A stretch of 64,000 nucleotides of DNA. Origin: Gammaproteobacteria bacterium (GTDB lineage Bacteria; Pseudomonadota; Gammaproteobacteria; GCA-001735895). The number at the start of each line of letters is the position of its first letter. Position 1 is the stretch's first letter. Shown piece by piece: positions 49,953-52,831 of the stretch. The translations under genes and the position numbers were made by a program. Below the pieces are notes generated by a model. The model was not told where the DNA came from. It searched no databases and saw nothing but the letters and a program-made list of their open reading frames with translations. Location of the stretch: the NCBI GenBank assembly GCA_030066085.1, contig JASJCI010000025.1:1-64000 (forward strand). The letters are read 5' to 3'.

Positions 49953-51686
49953 ATGTTTGCTACCAAATCCGAAACCAATAAATCGAAAACGATCGACGCA
50001 TTGATTCCGATGATCGATCTGTTCGCCGTACTCGCGATCGTATTCATGATCTACTCCAGCGACGAAATCATCGCCGCGCAGGAGAAAAGCCAGGAGACGA
50101 TCGACGAGATCGCCACCGAGTACAAGAAGCTGAAAGAAGAAGTTGCCGCGGCCGAGGAGGCCAGGCAGCGCCGGCGCGATACCCTGGCCGAGAACGCGGT
50201 CAAAACGCTCGAGGAAATCGAGTCGGAGCGCGAGCAAAAGGCGCAGCAGCTGGTGCAGCAGTTTACCCAGATGATGGAAGCGCAGCAGGCCGAGGCCAAG
50301 AAGGAATATGAAATCCTCGTCGCCAAGCTGGAGCTCGAGCAGGAGAAAGAAGTCGAGCGCCAGAAAACCGAACTGCAGCAGGAAAAACAGCAGCAGTTGC
50401 AGACCCAGGTGGCCCAGCTGGAACAGCAGAAAGAGCAGGAAGTCTCGGCGGCCAAGCAGGTCTTCGAACAACAGATGACGACCAAGCAGCAGCAGCTCGA
50501 AATGACCACCCAGGCGATCATCGCCGCGGAGATGGAGCGCGTGCAGGACCTGACCCAACAGCAGGCCGCGCTCGAGCAGCAGAAACAGACCGAGGTCGCC
50601 ATGGTGCAGCGGCAAAGCTCCGAGGCGCTGGCGCAACAGCGGGCGCAGCTCGAAGCGCAGAAGCAGGCTGAAGCGCAGGCAGCCGCGGAACAGGCCCGAC
50701 AGCAGGCCGCGGCCGAAGCCCAGGCGAAGCTGCAGCAGGAGCTGGCGGCGCAACAGGCCCGCCTGGAAGCGCAGAAGGCACAGGAGCTGGCGGCGCAGCA
50801 AGCCGCGGCCGAACAGCAAAAACAGCAGACGCTGGCGCAACAGCTGGCGGCGCAGCAGGCGCAGCTCGAAGCGCAAAAGGCGCGTGAACTGGCCGAAGCC
50901 GAAGCCGCCGCGCAGGAACTGGCGAAAAAGGCAGCGCAGGCTGCCGCCGAGGAAGCCGAGCGTGAAGTCAGGAAGACGGCCAAGCAGCAGGCGCAGGCCG
51001 AGGTCGAGGCCGAGCATGCCGAGGCGATGCAGCAGCAGCTGGCGCAGCTCGAGGCGCAAAAAGAGGCCGAGCTCAAGCCGTTTCTCGACGCCGAGCGCGA
51101 GCGCCAGGAAGCGCAGAAAGTTCGCGAGCAGATCGTCGACAACCTGCTGGAAAACTTCAAGGATTCCGACGAAGGCGACGTCGATATCGACCAGAAGACC
51201 GGCAAGGTCCGGATCAACTTCCAGGAGTCTTACTTCGTGCGCGGATCGGCCGAGCTGTCGGACAGCATGAAAGACCTGCTGCGCGTCATGATCCCGAAAT
51301 ACGCCAAGAGCATCTACGAGAACGAGGGTGCGGCCAAGCAGGTCGAGTCACTCAAGATCTCGGGCCTGACCTCGCCGATTTTCCGCGGCCGGTATTTCGA
51401 CATCAATGATACCTCGCCCGAGGGCGAAGAAGCGCGCGAGTACAACCTCAAGCTGAGTAACGACCGCGCGCTGGCGATGTACAACTACATATTCGACGAG
51501 GCGGAAATGGGCGATTACCCGTATCGCGCCCAGTTGAAGGCCGATCTTGGTATCGAGGCCCTGGGTTACCGAACCGCTACCCCGGTGCCGCAGCACCTGG
51601 TGGGCGAAAAAGCGGTCTGTCTCGAGTACGACTGCAAGAAAGAGCAGGCATCGATTCTCGAATTCAAACTTTATTCCGAGCTGTAA
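49953..51686 (+). CDS. Membrane-anchored coiled-coil OmpA-domain protein (ExbD/TolR-MotB-like)
   Basis: 577 residues. Residues 17-36 (ALIPMIDLFAVLAIVFMIY) form one membrane segment that aligns with the ExbD/TolR proton-channel helix; Asp22 stands where the proton-carrying Asp is found. Residues ~42-400 are an extreme Gln/Glu/Ala/Lys-rich coiled coil (AQQAAAEQQKQQTLAQQLAA). Residues ~402-577 look like an OmpA/MotB peptidoglycan-binding domain (KVRINFQESYFVRGSAELSD, LKLSNDRALAMYNYIFD). The coil could span the periplasm or much of it. The partner gene follows after 39 bp. Confidence 0.8.
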   Translation: MFATKSETNKSKTIDALIPMIDLFAVLAIVFMIYSSDEIIAAQEKSQETIDEIATEYKKLKEEVAAAEEARQRRRDTLAENAVKTLEEIESEREQKAQQLVQQFTQMMEAQQAEAKKEYEILVAKLELEQEKEVERQKTELQQEKQQQLQTQVAQLEQQKEQEVSAAKQVFEQQMTTKQQQLEMTTQAIIAAEMERVQDLTQQQAALEQQKQTEVAMVQRQSSEALAQQRAQLEAQKQAEAQAAAEQARQQAAAEAQAKLQQELAAQQARLEAQKAQELAAQQAAAEQQKQQTLAQQLAAQQAQLEAQKARELAEAEAAAQELAKKAAQAAAEEAEREVRKTAKQQAQAEVEAEHAEAMQQQLAQLEAQKEAELKPFLDAERERQEAQKVREQIVDNLLENFKDSDEGDVDIDQKTGKVRINFQESYFVRGSAELSDSMKDLLRVMIPKYAKSIYENEGAAKQVESLKISGLTSPIFRGRYFDINDTSPEGEEAREYNLKLSNDRALAMYNYIFDEAEMGDYPYRAQLKADLGIEALGYRTATPVPQHLVGEKAVCLEYDCKKEQASILEFKLYSEL

Positions 51687-51725
51687 AACTGACCAACATC
51701 CTGACGAGGGTTAGGGGAGCAAACA

Positions 51726-52778
51726 ATGTTCAAGTACGTATTTTTAGGCATTATCGCGGCAACGGTGTATTTCGTGTTCTTCCTGGACGTGGCGATCACC
51801 AACGAGATGGTCGGCCGGCTGTTCATCAGCGGTATCGGCGCCTGTTTCCTCGCGTTCTGTTTTTTCAAGTTTGGCCTGCACTACAAGATCGCGTCGCTCG
51901 GTCGCTTCGCGACCGCGTTCTATTACGCGGTCTTCGAGTACAAGAAAGTACAGACGGCGCCGTCCGACCTGCCGTACGTCGACAGTGTGCGGCAACAGGC
52001 CGAGGTTGCGCTCGCGGCCAACTTCGACCCGACGCTGTCCGGGGGTCAGCTGGCGATACCGGTTACGCTCTACTCAGGCAAGGATCCGTACCTCGAGGAG
52101 CTGCGCGCCAAGATCAAGGAAGCGGAGAAGCTCAAGCTCAAGTCGCACCAGCTCGATACCCAGGCGAACATCCTGCTCGACAAAACCCAGGATGACATGG
52201 TCGAGAAGAACCTCGTCACCGGCGAAAAGCCCAAGCTGTTCGATCGCTGGTTCGAGATGGTCGAGGGTACCGAGGCGATCATCGATCTGACCACCGACGA
52301 GCTGAAGGAACAGGGTTACGGCCAGTCTCCCGATTACGAAATGATCAGCCGGATCGCGCTCGATCGTAATCCGCATTTCGGCACGACCTACCGGATCTTC
52401 GAATCCGAGGCGATCGCCGGCATCCTGGCGCGTGCGCCGTTCATGATCATCCTGATCGGTATCATCGGTACCTTTGCCGGCTTTTACCTGGCGCTGGCGC
52501 AGGGCGGTGACATCAAGGCCGGTGCCTCGGTGGCGATCGTGAGCTCGCTGGTCGGCCTGCCGACCGCGCTGATGATGGAATATATCAATACGCTGTTTCC
52601 GGACCAGGATCGTTACCGGCGCGCGTTCAACACCTACAAGGTTGCACTGGAGTTGCTGTTCAACCACGAGCAGGAGCTTTCCAGTATTCGCCAGGACCGC
52701 CGGCGCGAAGACAAGCTGCCGGGCGAGTCTTACCAGCCCGAGGATCGCGCGGGTTCGTCTTATTCCGGACCGAACTAG
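51726..52778 (+). CDS. MotA/TolQ/ExbB-like ion channel subunit
   Basis: 350 residues. Two N-terminal membrane segments (~5-23 and ~27-48), a cytoplasmic region of about 180 residues rich in charged helices, and then two more segments: RAPFMIILIGIIGTFAGFYL (~240-262) and GASVAIVSSLVGLPTALMME (~272-296). The last pair has the spacing and G/A/T pattern of TolQ/ExbB/MotA helices that pack around the Asp-bearing helix of the partner. AGGGG at 51713 precedes the ATG. It ends at a strong terminator, so the two genes form a complete unit. Confidence 0.8.
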   Translation: MFKYVFLGIIAATVYFVFFLDVAITNEMVGRLFISGIGACFLAFCFFKFGLHYKIASLGRFATAFYYAVFEYKKVQTAPSDLPYVDSVRQQAEVALAANFDPTLSGGQLAIPVTLYSGKDPYLEELRAKIKEAEKLKLKSHQLDTQANILLDKTQDDMVEKNLVTGEKPKLFDRWFEMVEGTEAIIDLTTDELKEQGYGQSPDYEMISRIALDRNPHFGTTYRIFESEAIAGILARAPFMIILIGIIGTFAGFYLALAQGGDIKAGASVAIVSSLVGLPTALMMEYINTLFPDQDRYRRAFNTYKVALELLFNHEQELSSIRQDRRREDKLPGESYQPEDRAGSSYSGPN

Positions 52779-52800
52779 GTATACCGGGAAACTGCAAAGG

Positions 52801-52831
52801 GCCGGTGACGAGTCGTCACCGGCTTTTTTTT
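52801..52831 (+). terminator. Intrinsic terminator of the motor-like unit
   Basis: A 10-bp perfect stem (GCCGGTGACG/CGTCACCGGC, 52801-52823) with a 3-base loop AGT is followed by eight T. It lies 22 bp after the stop of the channel gene. Confidence 0.93.

Follow-up and report, generated by a model that had tools for sequence, protein, structure and literature searches.

A ZorA/ZorB-related gene pair with a long, nonheptad coiled coil on its putative wall-anchored subunit

Described relatives of the gene pair

Zorya, a phage-defense system, provides the best solved match for both subunits of the gene pair described here. Its ZorA and ZorB proteins (8vvn, type I; 8vvi, type II; 8qyd) combine a MotA/ExbB-type A subunit with a single-helix, Asp-bearing B subunit that has an OmpA-superfamily wall domain, and the pair, in which gene B precedes gene A, does likewise. 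The two genes lie in a 64,000-nucleotide stretch of DNA from a gammaproteobacterium (the window; GenBank assembly GCA_030066085.1, contig JASJCI010000025.1, positions 1 to 64,000). Zorya differs in carrying its long rod on A in the cytoplasm rather than on B in the periplasm, in the gene order A-B rather than B-A, and in having effector genes, none of which stands next to the pair among 10 neighbors. Moreover, ZorB controls score about four-fold above the B protein of the pair. On balance, we favor the reading that the pair encodes a 5:2-type ion-driven motor of the ZorA/ZorB lineage, distinct from Zorya defense, with the coil of B as a tether and a putative role in the envelope.

Other relatives distribute the same parts differently. 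The MotA/MotB stator likewise unites a motor core with an OmpA-type anchor, but its linker is short and bears a plug, and its context is flagellar (PMC12505986). In TolQ/TolR/TolA-Pal and ExbB/ExbD/TonB, an A-type core likewise meets an Asp-bearing helix, and TolA has a long helical rod; however, these systems divide Asp helix, rod, and anchor among different proteins, whereas all are on B here. No TolA/TonB, TolB, or Pal gene belongs to the unit among the neighbors of the window pair and of 21 homologous loci. GldL/GldM has a B-type subunit that forms a periplasmic shaft of 18 nm (PMC9389320), but this shaft consists of globular domains, is much shorter, and serves gliding and type 9 secretion.

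An annotated precedent for a long coil is PRK09039 (NCBIfam NF006542-NF006546), which likewise has a membrane helix, a coil, an OmpA domain, and an adjoining A-type gene. The first-pass annotation of the window had overlooked it in calling the unit possibly undescribed, a description that fits the combination of parts better than the parts themselves, whose nearest domain relatives are ZorA and ZorB.

Gene order and conserved motor residues

A search with A recovered 21 loci in named assemblies, nearly all of them metagenome-assembled genomes of Gammaproteobacteria; one each comes from a Woeseiaceae, a Pseudohongiella, and a Burkholderiales genome. B lies upstream of A in 20 of the 21 (L033 and L046 are counted here, their B being split over two open reading frames, ORFs), and the contig of L038 starts at A. 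This recurrent B-A order shows that both are real genes. The first-pass annotation had placed both ORFs correctly and had rightly read B as an Asp22 helix, a coil, and an OmpA-type domain and A as a protein of four segments. The hydrophobic segments of A peak at residues 6-24, 29-47, 239-257, and 266-284, and the protein ends about 65 residues past the last membrane segment, without a long tail. In B, the N terminus is net positive, and residues 36-60 are net negative.

Asp22, singled out in the same annotation, is indeed conserved: it is kept in 23 of 24 loci, a count that includes near-copies, and in the remaining one (L049), which a contig end truncates, MIDLF can still be read. An earlier motif listing was selected on the Asp itself and is therefore circular; it is not the basis of this count. 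Thr249 and Ser274 of A, assigned to transmembrane segments TM3/TM4 from the sequence, are invariant in all 15 rows aligned, including the A protein of a paralogous pair in the same genome. In ZorAB, the Asp faces a ring of Ser and Thr residues (PMC11890865), and the conservation of Asp22, Thr249, and Ser274 matches this arrangement, which supports the motor reading.

Relatedness of the subunits to ZorA and ZorB

The wall domain of B is, by sequence and predicted fold, of the ZorB type. Residues 375-577 are predicted to adopt an OmpA/MotB/ZorB-type fold (pLDDT 78, pTM 0.76). Fold libraries were searched with this C-terminal domain only. ZorB 8vvi was the top match in a PDB profile search (E 9.1e-6), was matched by the domain model in Foldseek (E 5.0e-6), and reached Z 13.4 in VIA-align (rmsd 4.6, 178 aligned), where it was followed by ZorB 8qyd (Z 11.8, rmsd 3.7, 164 aligned), ZorB 8vvn (Z 10.5, rmsd 4.4, 170 aligned), and MotB 2zvy (Z 9.9, rmsd 3.8, 157 aligned). 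In hhalign, the domain gave 98.1% to a ZorB set and 14.4% (E 0.0019) to a PRK09039 set. A tree of wall domains placed both paralogs in one clade (100/100), on the same side as six of seven ZorB-like rows (100/99); the seventh lies on the other side, on a very long branch. Family models gave lower scores: PADLOC ZorB1 gave B 80 bits versus 292 and 325 for two ZorB controls, NCBIfam ZorB2 gave 28.6 bits versus a cutoff of 400, Pfam OmpA gave E 0.0095, below its family cutoff, and A had no hit with the NCBIfam models. Among 369 genomes sampled from the class, 12 have the wall domain at E<=1e-6, in four long frames (578-913 codons) and eight short ones (227-290), with none between.

For A, a joint profile with its paralog matched ZorA (8vvn) in the PDB at E 5.8e-6, so the predicted A-ZorA link appears real but thin. 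The first-pass label of a MotA/TolQ/ExbB-like subunit suits the ion-motor-like core, but not at the level of Pfam, where the cutoff of PF01618 (MotA_ExbB) is passed only by the paralogous A.

A separate feature of the wall domain is a Cys-x4-Cys motif at its end (B residues 556-561, window positions 51618-51635), which is invariant in both paralogs and possibly forms a periplasmic disulfide.

A coiled coil with an unusual period and length

The coil of B had been put at about 360 residues. It is indeed a long Gln/Ala/Glu coil, but it measures about 340 residues (36-375), with 78 Gln, 75 Ala, and 60 Glu. Residues 20-375 are devoid of Pro and Gly, as is the region from membrane helix to coil end in 12 of 18 full-length homologs. 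In all 18, hydrophobic residues recur with a computed period of 3.68-3.71 residues per turn; none peaks at 3.50, where power in the window family is below the shuffle mean. The period is robust to the treatment of Ala (3.71 without Ala, 3.69 with Ala fully counted), and, by thirds of the coil, the family peaks at 3.69 and then at 3.66. In one relative (L196, genome G087; L196:4703-7435), the B protein has 910 amino acids and about two dozen near-regular coil repeats of 26 residues (lag 26, z 26), which corresponds to 7 turns at 3.714 residues each; the coil peaks at 3.71 with a power of 7.8 versus a shuffle maximum of 0.76 +- 0.20. These repeats also offer a good natural template for studying right-handed coiled coils.

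The other coils of this kind behave differently. The paralogous coil has a repeat of 46 residues (13 turns, 3.54) in three of three proteins tested for lag and peaks at 3.53-3.54 in seven of seven, and the coil of a third, more distant pair peaks at 3.50 in four of four; the TolA protein of the same genome has no such periodicity. A straight helix has about 3.63 residues per turn, and periods above or below this value go with right- or left-handed supercoils, respectively (PMC4786415). From their periods of 3.70 and 3.54, therefore, the window-family coil is predicted to be right-handed and the paralogous coil left-handed. A candidate regularity, that coil length is set in whole helix turns, was not used: P was 0.0045 with 3.70 given and 0.09 with the period scanned, over 10 distinct lengths from relatives that are not independent, with L048 omitted and L044 and L047 corrected by hand for terminal extensions.

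The stretch between membrane helix and wall domain measures 323-467 residues in the window family, 539-745 in the paralog, and 665 in L196. At the coiled-coil rise of 0.1485 nm per residue, these lengths correspond to 48-69 nm, 80-111 nm, and 99 nm, respectively, and the window coil to about 50 nm. This is about twice the depth of a periplasm 25-30 nm wide (PMC8928145), and if that width applies here, a straight radial coil is excluded. A coil that is both longer than the periplasm and variable in length is not a ruler across it, which weakens the first-pass suggestion of a machine that reaches far across this compartment; the coil may instead run obliquely, parallel to the wall, or as a hairpin. 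Inserts among relatives cluster in B residues 200-375, and none occurs in residues 1-150: near the membrane the coil keeps its length, and its distal part can vary.

A putative wall-tethered motor

In the reading that we favor, a B dimer would have its two membrane helices enclosed by a ring of five A subunits, and ions would pass between Asp22 of B and Thr249/Ser274 of A, turning the A ring around the B axle. The B helices would run on into a two-stranded, right-handed periplasmic coiled coil of some 340 residues, at whose end ZorB-type domains would grip peptidoglycan. With a length about double the depth of the periplasm, the coil would have to run obliquely, follow the wall, or turn back on itself, and it could thus serve as a long tether with torsional compliance. 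Tension or slack in this wall-bound tether would gate ion flow, and the motor would return torque or tension to the wall or turn its own cytoplasmic ring. Computation supplies the gene pair itself, its conserved residues, the kinship of its domains, and the period and length of the coil; we infer the stoichiometry, the topology, the dimeric and parallel coil, the rotation, and the wall binding; the job of the pair is probably related to the envelope.

For related motors, it is believed that incoming ions rotate the pentamer clockwise about the dimer when viewed from outside (PMC9389320). Were the far end of B anchored, its membrane end would experience an anticlockwise reaction torque, and, by our own reasoning, such a torque would unwind a right-handed coil and tighten a left-handed one. 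Motor torque has been put at about 40 pN nm and the uncoiling torque of coiled coils at 30-40 pN nm, both being estimates (PMC9389320); since the two are similar, the torque of the motor on its anchor could, if the motor is real, be addressed with this system. Alternatively, the coil may be no more than a slack tether through which the wall pulls the channel open. A much more speculative extension, which we offer as a long shot, is that one cell has two paralogous wall-anchored 5:2 motors with opposite supercoils. If the A ring turned clockwise in both, as seen from outside, one shaft would be unwound and the other tightened by the same reaction torque, and the coils would complement each other as torsion springs or clutches, storing work done by the motors and transmitting it to the wall.

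Several observations weigh against the tethered-motor reading. At least one Pro or Gly occurs in the coil of 6 of the 18 homologs, the periodicity in the last third of the coil is weak and scattered, and the window coil on its own stands just 1.6 standard deviations over shuffles. Pfam assigned neither window protein to a family and, for A alone (P0002), returned nothing at E<=1, and the joint profile of A and its paralog is not very specific, as evidenced by a match to a cytochrome oxidase chain (E 2.9e-4); a predicted structure of A (AlphaFold2, 19 alignment rows) reached a pLDDT of 38 and was not used. B lacks the Asp that the GHTD motif of OmpA contains (it reads GLTSP), which makes binding of the B domain to peptidoglycan likely but not certain. 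Finally, neither neighbors nor co-occurrence indicates a function in the 21 loci and the window.

Alternative readings

Could the pair instead be a Zorya-like phage-defense sensor? On this view, the coil and wall domain of B would detect damage to the wall when a phage infects, and A would use its cytoplasmic domain to activate an effector encoded elsewhere. We consider this unlikely but worth keeping in view, given that ZorA and ZorB are the nearest solved relatives, that B groups with ZorB-like proteins in the tree, and that the presence of the pair is patchy. A occurs in 17 of 41 genomes of the order (16 of 31 in its own genus and 1 of 10 in others; the copy in G023 is a fragment at a contig end), and the B domain is found at E<1e-100 in 16 of the 41, while G025 has A on a contig that begins just before A. 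Nevertheless, the ZorA tail, which Zorya needs, is missing, and the scores are far below those of Zorya models. No Zor match for zorC, zorD, or zorE was obtained with PADLOC among the 10 neighboring genes (effectors elsewhere in the genome being possible). The HIT-family and patatin genes nearby gave general matches only: a PADLOC ThsC2 match and a phospholipase-effector match, respectively, were rejected, both genes being ordinary members of large families. The pair was not found in 72,556 plasmid records, 50,697 phage records, or viral contigs, and no conserved variable island context was seen. It is chromosomal and occurs in a Woeseiaceae-type genus plus a few relatives: A is in 3 of 369 genomes of the class sample, its own included, and the joint profile of A and its paralog matched 1 of 398 genomes of the phylum sample, again its own.

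A force transducer of the Tol/Ton kind, in which the coil would be a hairpin of half length that spans the periplasm and pulls a partner in the outer membrane or wall, strikes us as improbable. Its appeal is dimensional: TolA domain II is a helical hairpin of 22 nm in a periplasm of 25-30 nm (PMC8928145), and halving the window coil gives about 25 nm. However, the stretch without Pro and Gly offers no break for a turn, lengths vary widely within the family, and half of the paralogous coil would be 40-55 nm. In addition, the genome has its own TolA, whose periodicity is not of this type, and a full tol-pal locus.

Still less probable, in our estimation, is a role as an accessory stator in flagellar or surface motility, with the unit pushing on a cytoplasmic rotor and B fixing it to the wall at a distant site. 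The anchoring domain is of the MotB type, and two outlying homologs do lie near flagellar genes: L048 is about 3 kb from a motA/motB pair, and L196 is about 3 kb from fliL and fliM. The first-pass statement that no tol, ton, flagellar, or zorC/D/E gene is adjacent holds in the window; these two loci, out of the five whose neighbors were read gene by gene (the window, L048, L059, L196, and L197), tell partly against it, most others having been clustered only. Against a stator stand the lack of a flagellar gene beside the window pair, the lack of a conserved neighbor, the MotA/MotB-type pairs already present in the genome, and the lack of a MotB_plug match for B in Pfam. Lastly, a nonworking motor, that is, a passive wall-to-membrane tether or a regulated ion leak with a retained motor fold, is very unlikely, for the strict conservation of Asp22, Thr249, and Ser274 argues for ion conduction, even if a purely scaffolding role is conceivable for the coil and for the part of A in the cytoplasm.

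A second lineage of long-coil pairs

A search with ZorA1 yielded 20 loci, comprising seven PRK09039-type pairs, nine Zorya-like pairs with a short B, and four (L148, L150, L151, and L154) that ORF calling left unsettled; the genome of the window gave no ZorA1 match at 1e-10. In the seven (L141, L143, L146, L147, L149, L153, and L155), the PRK09039 gene directly follows a MotA/ExbB/ZorA-like gene, the reverse of the order in the window; NCBIfam models were run on four of the seven B proteins. Their coils have 174-251 residues (one family model has 627 positions) and a period of 3.49-3.51 in seven of seven, i.e., heptads, and their wall domain falls on the MotB/Pal side of the tree, whereas that of the window falls on the ZorB side. 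From these differences in wall domain, gene order, and coil type, the long coil seems to have arisen separately in PRK09039, and we regard these pairs as a second lineage. Beside one of them (L141:8002-10217), short repeated peptides on both strands are probably a DNA repeat array (CRISPR or similar) rather than genes.

Motor core, wall domain, and long coil on B are thus known as sequence families. Some nonflagellar motor relatives have extraordinarily large periplasmic domains (PMC12505986), and so similar proteins may have been seen before. The literature searched, which lacks most subscription papers and bioRxiv preprints, yielded no account of a long coil on a ZorB-type B subunit. Within that literature, the novelty lies in a ZorB-type domain on such a coil without a Zorya partner, in the nonheptad coil, and in oppositely wound paralogs in one genome.

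Genomic surroundings and paralogous pairs

The two genes are separated by 39 bp (Table 1). They have their own terminator, as first proposed, in the form of a strong hairpin with a T tract 3' of A (folding z -4.0); a sigma-70 scan found no promoter. Patatin-like phospholipase, SDR, HIT, and fasciclin genes precede the pair, and HAD hydrolase, DUF411, and S49 peptidase genes follow it; no Zorya, Tol, Ton, or flagellar gene adjoins it in the window. The survey of homologous neighborhoods, by ORF clustering of the 21 loci and the window, with several flanks cut by contig ends, found no conserved neighbor beyond the pair. An SDR gene (four loci) and a LysM/M23 gene (three loci) were rejected as functional links, and opposite-strand ORFs that overlap the pair were dismissed as artifacts.

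Table 1. Coordinates of the gene pair, its parts, and related pairs in the same genome
Feature	Position	Strand	Description
Gene B	49953..51686	+	577 aa: membrane helix with Asp22, long coil, predicted wall domain of ZorB type
B membrane helix	49998..50054	+	Peak residues 16-34; sole hydrophobic segment of B
Asp22 codon in B helix	50016-50018	+	
B coiled coil	50058..51077	+	Residues 36-375, period 3.70, predicted right-handed
B C-terminal ZorB/OmpA-type domain	51135..51683	+	Residues 395-577, LS-x2-RA motif, invariant Cys-x4-Cys
Gene A	51726..52778	+	350 aa: MotA/TolQ/ExbB/ZorA-like ring subunit (putative)
Intrinsic terminator	52799..52831	+	GC-rich hairpin GCCGGTGAC then 8 T
Paralogous B-A pair	G000:C45:91682-95226 (L052:4683-8227)		B 882 aa, A 299 aa, 4 bp overlap
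Third, more distant A/B-type pair	G000:C14:1-1460 (L110)		A 309 aa, B ~332 aa, heptad coil

As a correction to the first-pass annotation, the genome contains two further A/B-type pairs. The paralogous pair, as detected by its C-terminal half, occurs in 19 of the 41 genomes of the order, with fragments in three more, all within the same genus. The third pair occurs in 28 of the 31 genomes of the genus (relatives are L170, L171, L172, and L175); no OmpA model matched the C-terminal domain of its B. For the other pairs, Pfam matches to coiled-coil families (Taxilin, IFT57, ATG16, etc.) and PADLOC matches to JetC/LmuB were rejected as matches of composition. PF01618 matches 10 places in the genome, nine above cutoff, which include TolQ of the tol-pal locus (on a contig other than that of the window), ExbB-type and MotA-type genes, and the paralogous pair. 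With the usual Tol-Pal, ExbB, and MotAB-type genes thus retained, the A/B pair replaces none of them.

Implications

There are few kinds of 5:2 ion motor, and every further arrangement is a test of the mechanism that they share. In the arrangement described here, the rod is on the anchored axle rather than on the ring, is built from nonheptad repeats, and is longer than the compartment that holds it. If the reading that we favor is true, the torque that such a motor exerts on its own anchor would become a testable question. It would also mean that a ZorA/ZorB-type core is used outside phage defense, which would bear on the origin of Zorya and on the automatic annotation of ZorB hits.

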